35,124 nucleotides of DNA, from assembly GCA_025201865.1 (NCBI GenBank), contig MU602775.1:21070-56193 (forward strand), read 5' to 3'. Numbering within the stretch: the stretch's first letter is position 1; each line of letters begins with the position of its first letter. The DNA is from Ramicandelaber brevisporus (Eukaryota; Kickxellomycota; Ramicandelaberales; Ramicandelaberaceae). A model generated the notes under the pieces. It was not told the origin of the DNA. It did no database searches and saw only the letters and a program-made list of their open reading frames with translations. Made by a program: the position numbers and the translations under genes. Shown piece after piece: positions 4,893 through 29,961 of the stretch.

Positions 4893-7412
4893 TCAATAGT
4901 TTCCATTACCATCGTTTTTGTCACCATGAATGCCAGGTCCACTAGTGTACTGACGCTGGTGGATCTGCGATTGCTGTTGTTGATGCTGCTGTGACATTTG
5001 ATATAATGGAAGATGTTGATGATGATGTTGTTGCTGCTGGTGCTGCTGGTGCTGCTGATGCTGTTGACCATGAACTGAAGTCAGTGTAGCAGGCGGACAA
5101 GCTGTGTTCACATCTTGAGCAGACCCAATACTTGTCATACGAAGTGTCAAAGGATTAGCTGCCTGAATACTAACTTCTTGAGGAGTGGCAGCGATACTAG
5201 TGACGTTGGAGCCAGCAACCACCCTGCTGGCAGGCGTGTTGCTATATGTTGGTAACGGTGTCACATCGCTGCTAGTCATTGCTCCACCGCTGGCATTCGA
5301 CAGTGCGAGGTCAGTACCAAGTTGAGCTGAGCCGAATGCAACAGCTGCAATCGGCGTAGCAATGCCACTGGGATTCAATGAGGCATAGCCACTATAGAGA
5401 CTGTTGCGTCTGCTGATGCCAACGGCAGATTGAGACTGATCAGTTCCACTGGGAATGAGCATTTGGGCAGAGCCGGCACTGAATGCAACGCGCTGTTGAA
5501 GTTGATGCTGATTCTGCTGCTGCTGCTGCTGCTGTTGAATTTGTTGAGTGGCAGCTGATAGATGTGGGGCAGACAATGCGCTGAATGCAACAGGGCCAGT
5601 GTGCATCATTGAGTTAATTGACATTACACTTGAAGGTGAGCCATTTCCAGCACTTCCAACACTTCCAACAGCGGCAGCAGTAGCGGTAGAAGCATTGTAT
5701 TCGAGTATGGCAGATTGATAGGCATTACTAGAAATAGATTGCAGTTCATGATTTTGCATTTCTCTATCATATCTTTTACGGTCGTCAATGGCCATGTCAG
5801 TATAAGGTTTTCTAGCATTATCATCCATTGTACGCCACTCCTCACTTAATTGCTTTACAAAATCTCGATTCTGGATTGCAAGCGATTTGAAGTTTCGCTC
5901 TCGACGCTGCGCATTAACAAAGAACAAAAATGCATTGCGGAATCTCTTGAATGGCGGCCGGGCTGGTTTGCTTGTTGCTGTGATGGCCGTGGCTGTGTTG
6001 GTTGGAGTCATTGAACTATGGACTGACTGGATAGCTGCACTTGATGACTGTGAGCGCTGGTGATACTGGAGTGGATCCAGAGGAAGGATATCGGGGTTTC
6101 CACGATGGAGAGGATGGGTGTGCTGCAATTGCTGATGCGACTGAATTGCATAGCCAGTCAGTGGAGTGGTGTTTGTAGACTGTGACATTCCTCCTCCACT
6201 GTTGCGATTCACAGTTGGAGTTACCATGGCGGGATCAATAGTGTTTGGAGATGACTTGCGATGCTTGCCCGACTTTGGTCGAGCTGGAGTCTGGGGCGAA
6301 TCAACATTGGCAGTGGGCAGTGAATGACGCTGGAATTGAGACACTGATGCACTGGCGTTTGCACCAATGGCAACAGGCGCACCTCCAGCCAACAGGTAGT
6401 TGGATGTCAAACCAAATGCAGAGGAGGTTGGATTCATCAAATCCGATCCTTGTTGAAGCTGCAATGCTTGAAATTGATACTGAGCAGGTACAAATGATTG
6501 CTGCTGAGGTTGAGGAATCATAGTTTGGTACAATTGCTGCTGCTGCTGCTGCTGTTGCTGTTGTTGCTGTTGCTGTGGGCGAATTTGCTGTTGCTGCTGT
6601 ACTTGTTGTTGCTGTTGTTGCTGCTGTACAGGCTGTTGCACTTGCTGTGTATGAACTGTATTTGTCATGTAAGGGACGTAGAATGGCTGCTGCGGGAAAT
6701 CAACATTCCCGCCGGGAAGAGGCAGCGTGATGCCTGCAGCTGGTGCTGGCAATGTCATATCAGTTGCCATTGCGAACGATGACTGCGATGCAGCTTGAGT
6801 GGGATGATACGACGGAATGCTACCACCAATCGCCGATGTTATTGACGGGATTTGAACAGACTGCCTGGGCTGTTGCTGCATTAGCTGGGCCAGCTGGCTA
6901 TCATTTAGAGTAGATGGGAGCGGCAGTGATCCGCCTCCACCTCCTGCTGTAGCTACTGCACTGTTGTTGCTGACGCCACTGTTCGGATTTGAGACTGCAG
7001 AGCTGGGTGTTGACGAACGCGAATTACTCGAACTCCCTTCAGCCCTCACTCCCAGCTTGTTGTTTGAAGACGATGGAAACATCGAACCAGAGACTGAACG
7101 CGTTGGCAACGGTAGTTTGCGTGGCTCAACTGGGATTTGCAACGGGGGCGGCTGTGGTGCAGGCTGCGGCAGGAATGGTTGCTGCTGTAATAGCTGGTGC
7201 TGGTGCTGGTGCTGCTGGTGGTGATAACTCTTGTCTGTGGATGTGGAAATTGGTGAGGCGCCTGTTGTCGCTATCGGTGTCGTCGTTGTGAAGATGGAGG
7301 TTGCAGTTGATGTATTGAAAGTGGCTGTGGAATCAGTGGCAGTGGCAGTGGCAGTGGCAGTGGCAGTAGTAGTGTACACGTTGTCTGTGCTCTGTGTTGT
7401 AGTGAGCAACAT
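4893..7412 (-). CDS. HMG-box transcription regulator with polyQ tracts
   Basis: The protein has 839 residues and one HMG box at about residues 484-556. The box starts with PPFKRFRNAFLFFVNAQRR and contains the signature EEWRTMDDNARKPYTDMA and DRKRY, that is, the three-helix minor-groove DNA-binding fold. The rest is low-complexity: an N-terminal Thr/Ala repeat encoded by CAGTGC-type units (7330-7370), a long polyQ block (about residues 262-300, DNA 6530-6640), further Q/H runs near the C-terminus (DNA 4970-5065), and Ser/Ala-rich linkers. Such tracts are typical of fungal co-regulators of the Rox1/Ixr1 type, but the box does not let me assign one. It is a paralogue of the HMG gene at 16445-19720. 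The ATG at 7412 opens the frame. It is expected to be nuclear. Confidence 0.88.
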   Translation of the reverse strand: MLLTTTQSTDNVYTTTATATATATATDSTATFNTSTATSIFTTTTPIATTGASPISTSTDKSYHHQQHQHQHQLLQQQPFLPQPAPQPPPLQIPVEPRKLPLPTRSVSGSMFPSSSNNKLGVRAEGSSSNSRSSTPSSAVSNPNSGVSNNSAVATAGGGGGSLPLPSTLNDSQLAQLMQQQPRQSVQIPSITSAIGGSIPSYHPTQAASQSSFAMATDMTLPAPAAGITLPLPGGNVDFPQQPFYVPYMTNTVHTQQVQQPVQQQQQQQQVQQQQQIRPQQQQQQQQQQQQQQLYQTMIPQPQQQSFVPAQYQFQALQLQQGSDLMNPTSSAFGLTSNYLLAGGAPVAIGANASASVSQFQRHSLPTANVDSPQTPARPKSGKHRKSSPNTIDPAMVTPTVNRNSGGGMSQSTNTTPLTGYAIQSHQQLQHTHPLHRGNPDILPLDPLQYHQRSQSSSAAIQSVHSSMTPTNTATAITATSKPARPPFKRFRNAFLFFVNAQRRERNFKSLAIQNRDFVKQLSEEWRTMDDNARKPYTDMAIDDRKRYDREMQNHELQSISSNAYQSAILEYNASTATAAAVGSVGSAGNGSPSSVMSINSMMHTGPVAFSALSAPHLSAATQQIQQQQQQQQNQHQLQQRVAFSAGSAQMLIPSGTDQSQSAVGISRRNSLYSGYASLNPSGIATPIAAVAFGSAQLGTDLALSNASGGAMTSSDVTPLPTYSNTPASRVVAGSNVTSIAATPQEVSIQAANPLTLRMTSIGSAQDVNTACPPATLTSVHGQQHQQHQQHQQQQHHHQHLPLYQMSQQHQQQQSQIHQRQYTSGPGIHGDKNDGNGNY
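6530..6645 (-). repeat. CAG/CAA polyglutamine repeat inside HMG-box gene
   Basis: On the coding strand, mixed CAG and CAA codons encode almost uninterrupted glutamine. The mixture suggests selection on the protein tract rather than a young pure triplet expansion. Confidence 0.85.
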
Positions 7413-13417: not shown

Positions 13418-13947
13418 CCAATATTCGTACTCACTTTCTTCACACACACACACACACACACTCACTCACACATACTTACTTTCTATTCCACTATTATTTT
13501 CCTCTTTATTGCGACCTATTTTGCTTATACCTCCAGTTACCATCCACTTTCCACCATGTTTTTTATTTAGTATTATTAACACCCCTCCGCGCTTTATTCA
13601 AAGACATTTGTGTGTCTGCAAGCTCTACAAATCAGGCTAGACAAGAGAAAACAGAGCCAGCAACCAGTAACTAAAAACTACAAACAGCCATAGTTATCAC
13701 AACAATGACAGTAATAATGGCAGCTTGGAGCTTGTCTGTGCAGAACAAATAATCCCAAATTGAAGCGGTGTCTTTTTGGGTTACAGCTTCGAGCCTGCGA
13801 ATCAGCAACCAAAAAAAATAAAAAAATAACAAAGCCGAAGTCAACATCGACATCGACATCAACATCAACATCGTCGTCTCCGTAAACACGCACACGAAGA
13901 GCTTCAAGCGCACAGCTAGATCGAACTAGGAAAAGCGAGCAGATTCC
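13418..13947. other. Tandem intergenic region, promoter of the Tom20-SET gene
   Basis: A CA microsatellite at 13440-13461 is followed by a pyrimidine-rich stretch to about 13570, then A-rich DNA with a GACATC/AACATC array at 13845-13875 just before the Tom20-SET start. The minus-strand frame across 13678-14757 is antisense shadow. Confidence 0.45.
13440..13461. repeat. (CA)n microsatellite
   Basis: A perfect CA run lies about 20 bases after the stop codon of the zinc-cluster factor. Confidence 0.9.
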
Positions 13948-16233
13948 ATGGCACCCAACCCCTCTACTCCAGGAGCAACTGGCACTGGTGCCAACTACCG
14001 TTCGTGGCTGTTTGCCGGCCTCGCTGTCGCTGCTGTTGCCGGCATTGGCTATGCAACATACTTTGATTATCGCAGAAGAAACGACAAAACATTCCGCAAG
14101 GCTCTGCAGAAGGAGCGCAAGAAGGCTGCCAAGAAGGATCAGCAAAAGCGCTCTGCGGCAGCTGGTGGTGCTGGCGCAGACTCCACTACATCGAGCCGCT
14201 CTGGTGCTGGCGACGCTGACGGCGCGGATGCTTCCCCGGAGGCGCTCGAGAAGCGCGTCAAAGAGCTGCTGGCCCAGATTGCCAAGGATGAGCTGCCAAC
14301 CACTCCAGAAGGACTGGAGCAAATGTTCACTGAGAATCTGACGCGCGGTGAGCAGCTGATGCAGCTCGGACCAGATGCATTCGATGTGGCTGCGCTGTGC
14401 TACTACCGTGCATTGCGCGTGTTCCCTAACCCAATTGAGCTGATCACTGTGTATCAGCGCACATTGCCTGATCCAGTGTTCCAGCTTGTAATGCTGCTGA
14501 TGTCTGAGCAGATCAAGATGCGCCAGATGCAGTACTGGGAGAAGTTCCCGCCAAAGGAGATGAACGTGCGTGTCGATACCATCAACGTTGCCGAGCGTCC
14601 TGGTGTCAACGCATCCACCGTGTCTCTTGGTGGACGCACTGCTACTCGCCGCGCTGTCATTGCTCTCAAGGACTTCCAGCCGGGCGATGTCGTCTATGTG
14701 GATGAGCCTGTTGTAAGTGCACTGGAGCCAGGTCTTGAGACTACTCATTGCGAGCACTGTTTCAAGGTTGTTGCAGTCAGCGGATCATCTGAGGAGCTTG
14801 TTGATGGCGCTATTGCCTGCCCAACGTGCCCATATGCCAAGTATTGCAGCAAAGAATGCGAGAAGATTGCATTTGATGATTACCACCAGCACATTTGCCC
14901 AGGTCTGCACAAGTCGATTGCTGCTAAGCTCGAACTGTTCCATCAAATGGCCTATGGCGATGGTATCATTGAGGTTGATGAGACTGGCAAGGAGATTACC
15001 AGCGATTCCGAAGATGCTGCTGCTGTTGATGCTGTTGAGGCTTCAAGCAGCAAGGTTGAGAGTGAAACTGACGAGGAAGGCATTGATGTCATTACTCGTA
15101 GCGAGGCTGGTGACTTGGAACAGTCTGCCTCAAAGGCTGAAATGCTGGATGGTGTTGAATCAATTACCAGCGAGACTGCTGCTGACGTTGAGGAGGAAGG
15201 AGAGCAAGAACAAGAGCAAAAGCAAAAGCAAGAACAGGAGCAAAAGCAGGATCAGCAAGAAGAAGAAAAGCAGCCAGCTACCACTGAGAACGGTCGTGAC
15301 CCAGAAGACACGGTTGTTGTTCCACAGCCCGAGGAGAAGACTGATGCTGCTGAAGAGTCTGCTGCCGATGCTGATGTTGCTGAGCAGCCAGCCACCTCTG
15401 CCGTGGAAGAAGAGATTGAGGAGGAGGAGGAGGAGGAGGAGGAGGAGGAGGAGGAGGAAGAGGAAGCTGCGGAGAAGAAGGAAGCCGAGGATAAGCCAAC
15501 TTCCCCAGTTATTGTGAGCAGTGACCATCTCACATTGGTTCCACTGATGATTCTCAAGTTTATTGGTCGCATGATTGCTCGCGAGAAGGGTAAGAAGGAC
15601 ATTGACGAGGATGCTGACGGCGACAAGGCAAAGACTGCTGCTACTGCTGCTGCTCCTGCTGATGATGACAACAGCGAAGACTCATCCAAGGATGCTGGAG
15701 ACGATGAGACCTTCACCACCTGGGAGCACATTGAGCGCATCAAGTATCTCGATATGGATGCTACTCAACAATGGCTCGCCTGCCGCAAGCTCACTTCTGA
15801 GCTGCTTGATGCCCCAGACTTCAACTTCAATGAGACATTCAACATGGAGCGCTACATGATGCTTGTTGGCAAGATTGCCTACAACGCGTATGCCGTCAAC
15901 ATTCAGCCACTTGGTGCTGTTCCACATGCCACAAAGGATCAAGCTCGTACCGATGGTTCGTTCAAGCCTGCTGGTATGGCGCTCTACTTCCTCAGCTCGC
16001 AGCTGCAGCACTCGTGCAAACCAAACACCAAGCCAGCGTTCCCGACCGGCACCAACAAGCTTGCTTTGACTGCCACGGAGGCTATTAAGGAAGGCGATGA
16101 GCTGACTGTCTCGTGGATTCCAGTGCCAGAGAGCGTTGCCAAGGAGGCGCGCCAGAAGACTCTTGTCGAGAACTACGGATATCGCTGCGCATGCGATCGC
16201 TGCTCTGAATCCGAGGATGATGATGATGAATAA
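13948..16233 (+). CDS. TOM20: Tom20 mitochondrial import receptor fused to a MYND-SET (SMYD-like) module
   Basis: The protein has 761 residues and its start context is CCATGG. The N-terminus is Tom20: a membrane anchor at about 20-39, then YFDYRRRND and a Lys/Arg-rich stretch, and the presequence-binding domain at about 117-190 (EGLEQMFTENLTRGEQLM; YQRTLPDPVFQLVMLLMSEQ). Instead of ending there, as stand-alone Tom20 of about 150-200 residues does, the frame continues into a split SET domain: SET-N at about 230-260, MYND finger with all eight ligands C268, C271, C291, C294, C300, C304, H313 and C317, an acidic insert at about 345-560 with a Glu run near 490-508, then SET-C and a post-SET cluster (C747, C749, C752). 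SET signature residues are changed: QHSCKPN (Q687) instead of NHSCxPN, and ELTVSW (W723) where SMYD proteins have Tyr. It should sit in the outer membrane facing the cytosol. Methyltransferase activity is doubtful. No stop or splice signal separates the halves. Confidence 0.93.
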   Translation: MAPNPSTPGATGTGANYRSWLFAGLAVAAVAGIGYATYFDYRRRNDKTFRKALQKERKKAAKKDQQKRSAAAGGAGADSTTSSRSGAGDADGADASPEALEKRVKELLAQIAKDELPTTPEGLEQMFTENLTRGEQLMQLGPDAFDVAALCYYRALRVFPNPIELITVYQRTLPDPVFQLVMLLMSEQIKMRQMQYWEKFPPKEMNVRVDTINVAERPGVNASTVSLGGRTATRRAVIALKDFQPGDVVYVDEPVVSALEPGLETTHCEHCFKVVAVSGSSEELVDGAIACPTCPYAKYCSKECEKIAFDDYHQHICPGLHKSIAAKLELFHQMAYGDGIIEVDETGKEITSDSEDAAAVDAVEASSSKVESETDEEGIDVITRSEAGDLEQSASKAEMLDGVESITSETAADVEEEGEQEQEQKQKQEQEQKQDQQEEEKQPATTENGRDPEDTVVVPQPEEKTDAAEESAADADVAEQPATSAVEEEIEEEEEEEEEEEEEEEEAAEKKEAEDKPTSPVIVSSDHLTLVPLMILKFIGRMIAREKGKKDIDEDADGDKAKTAATAAAPADDDNSEDSSKDAGDDETFTTWEHIERIKYLDMDATQQWLACRKLTSELLDAPDFNFNETFNMERYMMLVGKIAYNAYAVNIQPLGAVPHATKDQARTDGSFKPAGMALYFLSSQLQHSCKPNTKPAFPTGTNKLALTATEAIKEGDELTVSWIPVPESVAKEARQKTLVENYGYRCACDRCSESEDDDDE
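15418..15475 (+). repeat. GAG/GAA poly-glutamate repeat inside the Tom20-SET gene
   Basis: A run of GAG codons encodes about 18 consecutive Glu residues in the acidic insert that splits the SET domain. Confidence 0.9.
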
Positions 16234-16444: not shown

Positions 16445-19400
16445 CTATCTCGAACCAGATGCTGACTGTAATTTTGAAGTGACTGTAGGTGGTATACCTG
16501 ATAGAATGCTGTGGTTAGCAACTGACGATGACGATGATGACGATGGTGGTAGTTGTGGCATTTGTGGCGGTAGTTGTGGCGGTGGCGGTTGAATTAGTAA
16601 CTCTGATTGAGCCAAGCCTGTTAAAAGTGAGGCAATTGATGCGGTTGAATCTGAACGCAGCTGCTGTTGTTGCTGTTGCTGCTCAAGACAATCAGTGGCC
16701 AGCGAACTTCGTCGACGCAAAGGTGAGCTGGCTCTAACTGACAGGTACTGATTATGCTGAGAGTGCTGTGAAGCTGTGGATGATTGTCGCGGCCGCTGAT
16801 ATGGATGGAACCCAACGTCCAACGACGCATTGCTGGGAGATCTGAATCCACGGACTTGACCGCCGCCAACGACACTAGCCGTCCCTGAGCTGCCATTGCT
16901 GTTATCGTTGCTGTTGCTGCTGGTACCGTTTGTTGCAATAGTGCCAGATTGAGCGTATAATGGAGGAGGTGTTGACCCGTTTGATTTGACAGTCTTTAGT
17001 GGCTCGATAGCTGAAGAGGCGGGATTGTTTACATCCCTGATGGCAATTGATGAAGCACAATCGAGGCTGCTGTTGGCACTGGCGATCCCACTATCGACTT
17101 GACCACCCATTTTCGTGGTTGCTGCGATGGCGGTGTCAGTTGTACAAACAGTAGCAGCAGCAGTAGTATTAGTGGTAAATGAGTCAAGTTGTACAAAGGC
17201 GGGAACGCTGGAGTCGCTTGCCATAACTGAAGCTGATGACATGGTGACGGGTGGAACGACGGATACTGCGGCAAGTGGCGATGAGAAACCAAGCTGCATG
17301 CTGGTTAGCATTTGACGAGCCAGTGACGACGCAGGCGACTGAATAAGATCGCCCAAGTTTGGCGACAGTGCACCGGATGAGGCGGCGGTGATGGCTGTGA
17401 CTGGAATAGCGGAAGCTGCAAGTGAGGACTGGCTGCCTTCAAACAGCAATGGAGCTGCAGATGATGTGATAAAGCCAGTATGGTTGGCTGCGACATTTAC
17501 GGGAAGATCAATACCACCAGCTGATGTGATTGCTGAGGTTGATGCTGATGCCGATGATGGTAAAAGTTGCAAGCTAGGCGAGGTTAACGCCGCTGCGACA
17601 AACACAGCAGAGTCAACTTCAGCTCCATTCACATGCAGAGCGCCTGCACCACTAGTCACAGACGTCGATCCTGGACCTGCACCAGCGCCTCCAACCGAAG
17701 CGAGAAGAGCTGCGGAGGATGGATTTGCGAGATATGCAGGCAATCCAGCAACTCCCGAAGCAGGCGTAAGGTTATTGGAAGCTGTGGCAATCGTGCTGGC
17801 TGTTGTGTGAGCTCTCTTGCGGTTTAAGCTGTTTGAGTTTGAGTTTGAATTTGCGGTAGCAGCAGCGGCCGCCGCCGCAGCCGCAGCGACAATCATTGCA
17901 GACCGTGAGATGGATGTTGAAGAGCCGGCTGCGGTTGAAGCAGCTCCTGACAGCACTTGATTTGCAGCCGCAGCCTGATGAATATCGCTAGTACCTTCAG
18001 CTACACTGTTGGCATTTGAGCTTGCAGTGGCGGCGGCAGCAGCAGCAGCCAAAAGCGAAGCAGCCGAAGCAGCTGTAGAAGAGGAAGCCACACCAGTCAA
18101 TCCATCGTTACTTTTAAGGGGTAAAAATGAACTCTCACCGCTGATACTGCTACCACCCGAGCTTCCTCGCAAATTTGATAAAAATCCAACTCCACCACTG
18201 CTGCTACCACTGTTGATGCCGTTGTTGTTGATTCCGGCAAGACCTGCTGACACACCACTGTCTGAAGTTTGTAACGCAGGCGTCACTGATGAAACACTAT
18301 CCACCATTCCAAATGTTCCTCCAATGTTGCTGTACCCAGCATTGTCACTGTTCATTCCAAGTCCTGCTGCTGTGTTTGTATCTAGTATTGTACTGATGTG
18401 GCTGTTGGCTGTGATATCTGCAAAGGTGTATCCAGCCGTCAGTGTTTGTGTCGGTGGCATTACTGCAGCTGATCCAACCAATGGGTTATAGCCATGGAAT
18501 GATTGATATGCTGGTGGTGATTGTGGCATTGGCTGCGGCTGTTGTTGATATGTGTTAGCGTATCCTCCTCCTCCACTACTATTACCAAGCGGTGTCGATT
18601 GCTGTATCTGTTGCTGTTGTTGCTGTGGTGGCGGTGGTGGCGGCATTGATCCATAGTACCCATACTGGTTCATTCCGGCTCCATAACCACCATACTCATC
18701 TCCGCCGCCAGTGCCAGCACCCAGGAACACGTTTGCAGCAGCAGCAGCCGCCGCCGCAGCCGCAGGATTGTTAAAGAACATTGGTCCACCGACGCCCATC
18801 GACGCGGCGGCGGCCATCATTCCAAACAAACGCGGATCGCCTGGCTTCAAATTGGCTCCACGCGGCTTCGGCACAAACCTTCCATGCCTGCCTTGGTCAG
18901 TCTCGTATCGGTCTCGATCCTCTTGGGCCATTTGGTAATACGGCTGCTTCTCGGCCTCGGTCATTTGCTTCCATTCTGCGCTCATCAGCTTGAGGAAATC
19001 GCGGTTCTTGACTATGGCTTCATCAGCGCGCCGTTTACGCTGCTCGTTGACGTAAAAGATGAAGGCATTGCGAAACCGTTTGAATGGATTGGCGCCTGGT
19101 GGGTTTTGAGACTGGTTGGAGGAGGAGGATGCTGACTGATTAGTATCGGCGTGCGCAGTGTTGAACAGTTGGGGATTAATGTCACCAGTGCTGCCTGGAA
19201 TCATCAGACCACCGGAGGCACTACTGAAGCTGCCATTGATACTGCCATTGCCATACAATGGACCAGTTGGTGAGCCTGGGACGTTACTGCTGAAGTCAGC
19301 CAGTCCAAATGATGCCGTAACTGGCGGTTGATAGAACTGCTGCTGTTGCTGCTGTGGTGGTGGTGGCTGTTGTGTATCCACCAGGCTGTGCCCAAACTGT

Positions 19401-19720
19401 GGCATTCCAACAGACTGGCCAACAAAGGATGGTTGGGATTGTGGAGGCGGTGGATGTGCGAGCATCCCGCTGGAAGCAGCTGCTGTTGTGTTTGCAGAGT
19501 AGAACAAGTTGGATGGTAACAGTTGCGGCTGCTGTTGATGTGGCAGCATTGTGCCTGAAGGTGGAGCAAGCATAACAGGATTTGATGCAGAGGCAATAGC
19601 AGCAGCACTGGGGTGAAGTGGCAAAGGTGGATGAAGTGATGTGGAAAGCTGTGGTGGAGTGGATGACGATGTAGCTCCGGCTGACTGCTGGTCAGGAAGC
19701 AAAGAATAACGATGGTCCAT
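16445..19720 (-). CDS. Large HMG-box transcription regulator, paralogue of the gene at 4893-7412
   Basis: The protein has 1091 residues. The single HMG box is at about residues 210-283 and starts NPFKRFRNAFIFYVNEQRKR, with the typical SAEWKQMTEAEKQPYYQMA and DRDRYE. The first nine box residues FKRFRNAFx are identical to those of the other HMG protein in this window, which supports common origin. A basic/Pro stretch (HGRFVPKPRG) follows the box. The long C-terminal part is rich in Ala, Ser, Gly and Thr, with poly-Ala runs (DNA 17850-17885, 18030-18045, 18735-18765) and several polyQ stretches. It has no other recognised domain. A nuclear DNA-binding regulator is likely. The ATG at 19720 opens the frame, and a long region of about 3 kb with no gene lies upstream. 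Confidence 0.88.
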   Translation of the reverse strand: MDHRYSLLPDQQSAGATSSSTPPQLSTSLHPPLPLHPSAAAIASASNPVMLAPPSGTMLPHQQQPQLLPSNLFYSANTTAAASSGMLAHPPPPQSQPSFVGQSVGMPQFGHSLVDTQQPPPPQQQQQQFYQPPVTASFGLADFSSNVPGSPTGPLYGNGSINGSFSSASGGLMIPGSTGDINPQLFNTAHADTNQSASSSSNQSQNPPGANPFKRFRNAFIFYVNEQRKRRADEAIVKNRDFLKLMSAEWKQMTEAEKQPYYQMAQEDRDRYETDQGRHGRFVPKPRGANLKPGDPRLFGMMAAAASMGVGGPMFFNNPAAAAAAAAAANVFLGAGTGGGDEYGGYGAGMNQYGYYGSMPPPPPPQQQQQQIQQSTPLGNSSGGGGYANTYQQQPQPMPQSPPAYQSFHGYNPLVGSAAVMPPTQTLTAGYTFADITANSHISTILDTNTAAGLGMNSDNAGYSNIGGTFGMVDSVSSVTPALQTSDSGVSAGLAGINNNGINSGSSSGGVGFLSNLRGSSGGSSISGESSFLPLKSNDGLTGVASSSTAASAASLLAAAAAAATASSNANSVAEGTSDIHQAAAANQVLSGAASTAAGSSTSISRSAMIVAAAAAAAAAATANSNSNSNSLNRKRAHTTASTIATASNNLTPASGVAGLPAYLANPSSAALLASVGGAGAGPGSTSVTSGAGALHVNGAEVDSAVFVAAALTSPSLQLLPSSASASTSAITSAGGIDLPVNVAANHTGFITSSAAPLLFEGSQSSLAASAIPVTAITAASSGALSPNLGDLIQSPASSLARQMLTSMQLGFSSPLAAVSVVPPVTMSSASVMASDSSVPAFVQLDSFTTNTTAAATVCTTDTAIAATTKMGGQVDSGIASANSSLDCASSIAIRDVNNPASSAIEPLKTVKSNGSTPPPLYAQSGTIATNGTSSNSNDNSNGSSGTASVVGGGQVRGFRSPSNASLDVGFHPYQRPRQSSTASQHSQHNQYLSVRASSPLRRRSSLATDCLEQQQQQQQLRSDSTASIASLLTGLAQSELLIQPPPPQLPPQMPQLPPSSSSSSSVANHSILSGIPPTVTSKLQSASGSR

Positions 19721-27923: not shown

Positions 27924-29537
27924 TTAGTCAGTCTTGCGTTTAGCGAGATCCAAGGCAGCCTCGATGTTCTTCAGACGCTCAATGAGCGGTGGGCAAGAGT
28001 AGTGATAATTAACATAGAGTGGTTGTGGGTTGATTGCAACCACCGACCGGACTGGGGCAGCAAGGAGACCGCGACGGAACCAGCCACCCACCTGGCCGAG
28101 CTGCTCTGGGAGCTCCAGTGGAAGCACGGCAGACACAGAGTAGTCGGTCACAGCAACAAAGTGGCGCTCGATGGCACGAAGGACCAGGTCGAAGAACGTC
28201 GTCAGTGGCAAGAAGAGGAGCTGGAATATAATGTAGCCCAAAACTGGTGGAACGCCAGAGCCAGAGTAAGCAAAAAGAGAAGCACCGCCGTCCTTGTGAA
28301 TGGGCAGCTTGAATGCATTAAAGATATACTGGTTGTTCAGAGACAGAATGAAGGCAGCGATCAGTGCCATGTAGCGAGCTTGATGAGACCAGAACACAAC
28401 GGCAGCGGCATGAGTGCGCCACCAGACCATCGAGTGCAAAGCCAAGGCGGCAACGATGTCGTCGCCGTCATCCTTAGAGTTGCTCGAGTACACACTGTCC
28501 AGAAGCTGGCGAGAAATGACAAGGTATCTCTCGTCCAGTTGGCCATAATGCCATACACCAATTTGCGCCACAGACTGGTCGCCATTATCAATGTAGATGC
28601 GAGATACGTTGAATGTAACGGCCTCAGCAAGAGTGCGAATCTTGTTTTCAAGGGACTCGCTTGTCAGCTCAGTTGGGCCAACGGCAGCGTCAAAGATATC
28701 CGGCCAAACCCAGTTGTTCAGCAGATTGATGGACAGCAGCCCGGTCACAATCATGGCAAAGAAGATTGGGCCAGACTCTGCAAATGTTCCAACCCATAGC
28801 GCAATGTAAACAAACAGTGGAATTACAGTGCCATAGTAGAGAATAGAGCCAAGCAAGCTAGCAATAGAGCTGCCCAGGCTGTAGTGCCACATTCCAAAGA
28901 GACGGTCGATAATCGACTCCACAATATCCAGCACCACAGAAACAGCATAATGGGCAAGCAGATACGTGCCAATAAATGCAGTCTGCTGGATAATGCTGTG
29001 ATGGATCAGCGAATTTACCGACACGTATCCACCCAGCTGCTCTGTCACAATAGTCCAGAGCTGCGGAATGAGATCGTACTGGACCATGCCATAGGTGACG
29101 CCAACATTGATTGTGCTTCGGATAATCTTGACAACAGCCTTCACCATTGCGTATCGGCGCACAGCCTTGTATGTGTCAGACGGCATGCTCTTGGCCAAGT
29201 CCTTGTGGGGAATCTCCGAGCCAGCCAGCCAAAGACGGCCAAGCTGGATCAAGCTGATAAACGTCTCCGCTCCGTAAATGATGACGGAAAACAAGATGGC
29301 CATGTCCTTGTACGGGAGGTTGTCCCACTGAAAGCCTGACCAGGACGACGCGGCAGCCTCCCAGTATCCAATGACGTGTGCAATGCCGTCGTGAATTGGC
29401 GCAGGCAGGGCATGGTAGACAAAGACAAGGTTCTGGATGACGTAGCTGAGGATGGATGGCGCAAAGATAACTACGCCAAACACGAAGAGGCAGGACACGA
29501 TGATCAGCGTGTCGCTTGTTGACTCGCTAAAAGCCAT
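27924..29537 (-). CDS. Ste24-like (M48) polytopic membrane protein with lost catalytic residues
   Basis: The protein has 537 residues from MAFSESTSD (ATG at 29537; a TTG lies upstream). The layout is that of CAAX protease Ste24/ZMPSTE24: several membrane spans in the first half, the segment IRTLAEAVTFNVSRIYIDNG (Ste24: I..LA..V.FPL..V.V.DG), then the helix that should carry HExxH, then two more spans and the distal-ligand helix. The HELGHW position reads HSMVWW (H368, S369, W372), so the catalytic Glu and second His are gone. The E of FEYQAD reads Val461 (HFVAVTDYS), so the third zinc ligand is gone too. The SxHSNAYF element is also absent. It is probably an ER or nuclear-envelope membrane pseudoprotease. 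A recent pseudogene is unlikely because the frame is intact over 1.6 kb. Confidence 0.85.
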   Translation of the reverse strand: MAFSESTSDTLIIVSCLFVFGVVIFAPSILSYVIQNLVFVYHALPAPIHDGIAHVIGYWEAAASSWSGFQWDNLPYKDMAILFSVIIYGAETFISLIQLGRLWLAGSEIPHKDLAKSMPSDTYKAVRRYAMVKAVVKIIRSTINVGVTYGMVQYDLIPQLWTIVTEQLGGYVSVNSLIHHSIIQQTAFIGTYLLAHYAVSVVLDIVESIIDRLFGMWHYSLGSSIASLLGSILYYGTVIPLFVYIALWVGTFAESGPIFFAMIVTGLLSINLLNNWVWPDIFDAAVGPTELTSESLENKIRTLAEAVTFNVSRIYIDNGDQSVAQIGVWHYGQLDERYLVISRQLLDSVYSSNSKDDGDDIVAALALHSMVWWRTHAAAVVFWSHQARYMALIAAFILSLNNQYIFNAFKLPIHKDGGASLFAYSGSGVPPVLGYIIFQLLFLPLTTFFDLVLRAIERHFVAVTDYSVSAVLPLELPEQLGQVGGWFRRGLLAAPVRSVVAINPQPLYVNYHYSCPPLIERLKNIEAALDLAKRKTD

Positions 29538-29961
29538 CGGTTCAGAGGATATGATACACGCGTTTGCTCTTGGTGGTTTCAAAAAAAAAAAAAAGGTTGA
29601 TCACAATGAGGATGAAAACAGACAACAGACAGACAAGCGAGAGAGAGAGCAAACAAGCAAGCAAAAGAAAAAGAGAAAACGACAGACAGTCAGAGAGAGA
29701 GGGAGAAAGGGAGAGAGAGAACAGGCGAGAAGGTCACTTTTGCTAGCGTGGACTGCACAACCTAAAAAAAAAATCACAAAACGACAAAGCAACAACGACA
29801 AAGCGACAACAGCAACAACGAGGACGACGACGTGGTAGTGAAGGTGGCAGGGAAAAGAAAAGGGAAGGGACGGTCAGTAACGGTGTAAGAACGATCGTGA
29901 AAAGAAGTTGACAGCAGTTGACAGCAGTTGGCAGAAGTGACAGCAAGCGGAGTAGATTGGA
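29538..29961. promoter_or_regulatory. Divergent promoter of the Ste24-like and polytopic membrane protein genes
   Basis: 424 bases separate the two start codons. The plus strand is purine-rich with an A15 run at 29581-29595, GA-rich units (29640-29730), CAACRA repeats (29775-29820) and a duplicated TTGACAGCAG at about 29908-29927. No gene seen. Confidence 0.45.

Follow-up and report, generated by a model that had tools for sequence, protein, structure and literature searches.

The mitochondrial import receptor Tom20 is viewed as a short receptor, a picture that comes from yeast and animals. A survey of 229 fungal genomes by Ding et al. (2022; PMC9692433) sorted 3816 SET proteins into clusters, among them a Group 25 in which a MAS20 domain lies upstream of SET. 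Ascomycota yielded no Group 25 gene, which the authors read as a loss, and the text describing the group gives no function for it. The MAS20-SET architecture is thus already catalogued in fungi, a question that the original prediction for the present locus had left open. Within open-licence full text, we found no paper that treats the architecture as a mitochondrial import receptor and one that names it (PMC9692433). To this record we add a gene of Ramicandelaber brevisporus that is the sole Tom20 match of this fungus and whose SET half, judged by its active-site residues, probably cannot transfer methyl groups.

Two groups of SET proteins bear on that half. For the SMYD lysine methyltransferases, the part of the literature drawn on here (PMC4307310) reports that MYND fingers bind proline-rich peptides, that SMYD clefts bind peptides and that exchange of tyrosine for phenylalanine at the catalytic site abolishes the activity of SMYD2 and SMYD3. 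The Set3 family, in the account given in the relevant part of PMC2474616, is inactive as a methyltransferase owing to a change in its NHSC motif and works inside a deacetylase complex.

A single reading frame joins Tom20 to a split SET-MYND region

The window, that is, the whole stretch of 35,124 nucleotides analyzed from R. brevisporus, a fungus classified in Kickxellomycotina, contains at 13948-16233 (+) a frame that stays open across 761 codons plus a stop, with zero in-frame stops in its translation. Pfam-A domains follow one another along this frame in the order MAS20, zf-MYND and SET, each above its curated cut-off. The NCBI model of the gene (P0002, 745 amino acids, titled "SET domain-containing protein [Ramicandelaber brevisporus]") carries the identical fusion and matches the 761-residue translation except for 16 residues dropped in a poly-Glu tract; because it derives from the same contig, it is not independent support. 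The public model treats as an intron a 48-nt in-frame GT..AG piece inside this tract (about 15403-15450, +), a prediction that we judge doubtful because the piece sits within a GAG repeat. Since its removal keeps the frame, the fusion stands with or without it.

The first 200 residues of the translation resemble Tom20 throughout. A hydrophobic stretch at the N terminus (residues 21-36, 14008-14055, +, limits set by eye) forms the putative membrane anchor, and together with the basic segment that follows it (residues 21-68 in all) it aligns with the Tom20 chains of the solved structures 9i7s and 7vc9. The MAS20 domain (PF02064) covers residues 26-182 (14023-14493, +) with 107.5 bits against a cut-off of 27 (E 7.1e-31), spanning profile positions 2-131 of 132. 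Against solved structures, these 200 residues score 77.2 bits with the fungal-type Tom20 of 9i7s (185 amino acids) and 43.8 bits with human Tom20 (7vc9, 145 amino acids). In an AlphaFold2 single-sequence model, the presequence-receptor part (residues 97-199, 14236-14544, +) consists of helices at 97-113, 120-138, 142-158, 162-169 and 175-199, with mean pLDDT values per block of 67-80 at residues 101-160 and of 52-56 at 161-190.

Searching the 17.9-Mb, 510-contig assembly in six frames with PF02064 gave one match, the fusion gene itself (contig C108). Matches to other TOM components lie elsewhere in the assembly, one each for Tom22 and Tom7 and five for the porin family, which includes Tom40 and VDAC. 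As the sole Tom20 match, the fusion must take the role of import receptor, provided that no stand-alone TOM20 escaped the assembly or is so split by introns that it goes unrecognized; its presumed location and receptor function are those of the Tom20 family.

The second half follows the plan of the SMYD lysine methyltransferases, in which MYND lies inside SET and post-SET cysteines are present. SET-N, or the S-sequence, occupies residues 205-262 (14560-14733, +) in the alignments with SMYD3 and with the comparison panel described below, and has R-R-A at the G-x-G place. The MYND finger follows at residues 268-317 (14749-14898, +; PF01753, 25.5 bits against a cut-off of 22.7, E 1e-5) with all eight ligands, C268, C271, C291, C294, C300, C304, H313 and C317; H313 was picked by the H-x3-C spacing that we assume for this finger. 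What parts the MYND finger from the remainder of the fusion is an acidic insert of low complexity, about 185 residues long (337-520, 14956-15507, +), with a Glu run at 491-506 (15418-15465). Beyond it lies a helical, SET-I-like region (residues 525-655, 15520-15912, +), so assigned from its position between MYND and SET-C and from low-confidence models. The SET-C core (residues 671-724, 15958-16119, +) contains the PF00856 match at residues 671-722 (32.5 bits against a cut-off of 22.4, E 1.2e-7), the motif QHSCKPN (16006-16026) and, in place of the catalytic tyrosine, Trp723 (16114-16116). The post-SET motif CxCxxC at residues 747-752 (16174-16203, +), placed from sequence positions and alignments, supplies C747, C749 and C752, which together with C690 and the MYND residues we take to be zinc ligands. 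Directly after it the protein ends, so that the C-terminal TPR-like domain of SMYD1-4 is absent. Among solved structures, SMYD3 is the first match to the portion that follows Tom20 (46.7 bits).

At the junction between the two halves, no candidate intron starting at 14381-14800 came up in a coarse pattern scan that required a donor GTRNG, a branch site CTRAY and an acceptor YAG within 40-200 nt. A donor-like GTAAGT does occur at 14714-14719 (+), directly 5' of MYND; an in-frame splice from this site, which would delete the first MYND cysteine pair, is unsupported by the scan's branch-site rule. Codon usage was also scored as log-odds, with five ORFs of the window as the training set. The frame of the fusion outscored both alternative forward frames in 13 of 15 scoring windows, and the best reverse frame scored higher than it in 11 of 15. 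The score settles neither strand nor continuity; strand and frame are assigned by homology. An antisense ORF of 359 amino acids (13678-14757, -), which overlaps the Tom20 part, is probably a mirror frame of the coding sequence.

These results bear out the layout that the original prediction had described for the gene: a single 761-codon frame linking the anchor, basic stretch and receptor domain of Tom20 to a MYND-SET module, with eight MYND ligands and post-SET cysteines in place. The second, stand-alone TOM20 that it suggested looking for did not appear in the assembly-wide search, nor did an intron candidate in the scanned interval around 14520-14600, where it had considered a spliced stop. 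The SMYD-like layout that it described is complete in the order of SET-N, MYND, SET-C and post-SET, with the qualifications that the catalytic and cofactor residues are not conserved and that the TPR-like domain is absent.

Two HMG-box ORFs, at 4893-7412 (-) and 16445-19720 (-), flank the fusion gene, one on each side. Farther along the window, an ORF at 27924-29582 (-) encodes a Ste24-like protein in which the N-terminal domain of CAAX proteases (PF16491) is recognized. Neither an M48 domain nor an HExxH motif was found in this ORF, which has the stretch HSMVWWRTH near residue 383, and the protein is possibly an inactive paralog; two M48 domains are present elsewhere in the genome (contigs C64 and C510).

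Active-site residues of the SET half

We compared the SET half with a panel of 57 SET loci from viral (13) and prokaryote (44) collections, each required to contain the pattern [NSQ]HSC[LAK]PN[CT] or a stretch of the xxGxxLT[VI] type. Thirteen loci were dropped, 12 lacking the HSCxPN motif and one too short at its N terminus, and their tyrosines are not counted. The 44 retained loci and two SET-MYND paralogs from the R. brevisporus genome gave 46 aligned rows, to which the fusion was aligned with its insert cut out. The panel is mostly bacterial, and its patterns partly select for HSC/PN and LT; the first of them also admits Ser or Gln at the asparagine, and neither includes the tyrosine.

In this panel, the column of Trp723 holds tyrosine in 45 of 46 rows and phenylalanine in the remaining one, the paralog on contig C165. 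The asparagine of NHSC, replaced by Gln687 in the fusion (QHSC at 687-690), is likewise present in 45 of 46 rows, with serine in the other. When the 44 fetched rows are thinned to representatives at 70% identity, all 20 that remain have both Tyr and Asn. In a phmmer alignment, the residue of SMYD3 that pairs with Trp723 is Tyr239. Within xHSCxPN, the fusion retains His, Ser, Cys, Pro and Asn, which each of the 46 rows has as well, so that the active site of the fusion is not wholly eroded.

At the G-x-G place, glycine occupies the first position in 40 rows and the third in 38, and the fusion, with R-R-A, is the sole row missing both, in an alignment where its SLGGRTAT could be realigned as an insertion with a different gap placement. 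Seven Verrucomicrobial MYND-SET rows and C165 have GRH, GRN or GRR here, and those seven retain Tyr and NHSC; because rows that keep these residues also depart at this place, loss of G-x-G alone is weak evidence. Proteins of about 555-572 amino acids from bacterial contigs (L042-L048), mainly of Verrucomicrobia and including the complete genome CP011265.1, have a SET domain that a cluster of MYND-like cysteines interrupts, as in the SMYD layout, with GRH or GRN for G-x-G and with Tyr and NHSC kept.

Predicted structures add little at this level of detail. The AlphaFold2 single-sequence model of the whole fusion (mean pLDDT 42.2) has believable helices in the Tom20 part alone, and a model of residues 198-761 from a 13-row alignment reaches a mean pLDDT of 50.5, and 93 of its 564 residues score at least 70. 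A Foldseek search with the latter returned one hit at E <= 0.001 (SMYD3, 5ex3, TM 0.10), followed mostly by further SMYD3 entries, which is too weak to place Trp723.

Eight SET matches were found in the R. brevisporus genome, of which five have tyrosine at the catalytic position, one has phenylalanine (C165) and two have tryptophan (the fusion and a PHD-SET protein). The protein on C165 is a second SET-MYND paralog (L016:55-1965, -), with SHSC for NHSC, and may be inactive too; with its phenylalanine, loss of the catalytic tyrosine in this genome extends beyond the fusion. The PHD-SET protein (L009, on contig C94) has RFGC for NHSC and appears to be Set3-like.

Possible roles of the fusion protein

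We lean towards reading the gene as a Tom20 import receptor that carries a zinc-stabilized pseudo-methyltransferase used for binding. One gene would encode the Tom20 of R. brevisporus, its N terminus anchored in the outer membrane and a SET-MYND region of SMYD5-like layout at its C terminus, which should face the cytosol since it sits after the receptor domain. The Tom20 half would carry out ordinary presequence binding beside Tom22 and Tom40. The C-terminal half probably folds, because neither any of the eight MYND ligands nor the post-SET cysteines have been lost, and it has most likely lost methyl transfer, a reading favored by Trp723, Gln687 and the missing G-x-G glycines when set against the panel. 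It would act as a protein-binding module through the MYND groove, the former substrate cleft or both, and would keep a cytosolic partner or a precursor close to the import pore. Docking near the pore would be the simplest use of a retained inactive module, because MYND fingers and SMYD clefts bind peptides. The original prediction had put a lysine-methyltransferase fold directly at the TOM pore, with possible action on incoming precursors or other TOM subunits; the tryptophan at the catalytic tyrosine, the glutamine at the asparagine of NHSC and the loss of both G-x-G glycines speak against such an enzyme, and the binding module that it offered as an alternative fits the sequence better.

An active enzyme tethered at TOM, methylating precursors or TOM subunits, would require that Trp723 be tolerated or that other residues be catalytic. 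The SET-MYND-SET order, the HSCxPN core and the post-SET zinc site are all retained, and SMYD3 is the best match by both sequence and fold, which speaks for such an enzyme. Set against this are a tryptophan where 45 of 46 aligned proteins have tyrosine, a glutamine for asparagine and a missing G-x-G, and in SMYD2 and SMYD3 even a change of tyrosine to phenylalanine is inactivating (PMC4307310, in the part cited above); we regard an active methyltransferase as decidedly unlikely. The same degenerate active site, together with the long low-complexity insert, would also suit a passive passenger, that is, a fusion fixed by drift in which Tom20 functions and the SET half decays without a role. Every zinc ligand of the MYND and post-SET sites is intact, however, and the relevant part of PMC9692433 reports the architecture for an entire SET group of fungi, which argues for retention and makes a mere passenger unlikely in our view.

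The two halves could, finally, belong to separate genes joined by an assembly error, an overlooked intron or separate transcripts, and the NCBI protein, which derives from the same contig, does not speak to this. The 761-codon frame is unbroken, however, the crude junction scan gave no intron candidate and just 20-odd residues separate the two folds. Since MAS20-SET fusions are moreover reported independently from other fungal genomes (PMC9692433, as described for Group 25), we consider an artifact highly improbable.

The idea of a receptor with a binding module can be extended beyond this species, at present as a tentative and rather doubtful proposal. Tom20 of non-Ascomycota fungi might be a two-part protein whose SET-MYND half is a conserved pseudo-methyltransferase fixed in TOM, where it would dock a chaperone, the ribosome or a regulated precursor; yeast and Neurospora, with their short Tom20, would then have a reduced form. 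If these fungi do build Tom20 with a dead SET-MYND half used for binding, the best-studied TOM complexes miss a part. If the half is dead, a census of SET proteins counts a non-enzyme among candidate histone methyltransferases. Basidiomycete proteins may have the same layout, perhaps with the tyrosine kept, a point on which none of the readings given here draws.

Protein searches say little about the spread of the fusion, because they depend on shared five-residue words and other Tom20 proteins also went unrecovered. With the full fusion as query, the NCBI copy was the only hit among the best 7998 candidates scored, and with region 15-335 it was again the only one among the best 8000. With residues 98-200 of a 335-codon query (length range about 184-586 amino acids), none of 93 candidates reached E <= 1. 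When prokaryote genomes and viral contigs were searched with P0001, no relative came up among 224 and 62 pattern matches, respectively.

Comparison with described systems

The closest described counterpart of the fusion is Group 25 of Ding et al. (PMC9692433), with which it shares MAS20 before SET and an origin in a fungus outside Ascomycota; the likeness is one of described domain order, not of member sequences. That survey accepted PF00856 matches at E < 1e-5, and in the fusion MAS20 (E 7.1e-31) lies upstream of a SET match with E 1.2e-7, values that come from search sizes unlike those of the paper. Set3-type PHD-SET proteins, including the one on C94 of the same genome (L009), share with the fusion a tryptophan at the catalytic tyrosine and an altered NHSC, and differ from it in having a PHD finger and neither MYND nor Tom20, so that the analogy is functional only.

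With the SMYD family, in which SMYD3 is nearest by sequence and SMYD5 by domain layout, the fusion has in common the MYND-split SET, the SET-I region and the post-SET cysteines. It departs from that family in its tryptophan for the catalytic tyrosine, in QHSC for NHSC, in the lack of G-x-G and of the C-terminal TPR-like domain, and in the Tom20 at its N terminus. With canonical Tom20, as seen in 9i7s and in human 7vc9, it shares the anchor, the basic stretch and the receptor helices. Those chains, of 185 and 145 amino acids, stop after the receptor domain, whereas the fusion runs on for about 560 residues.
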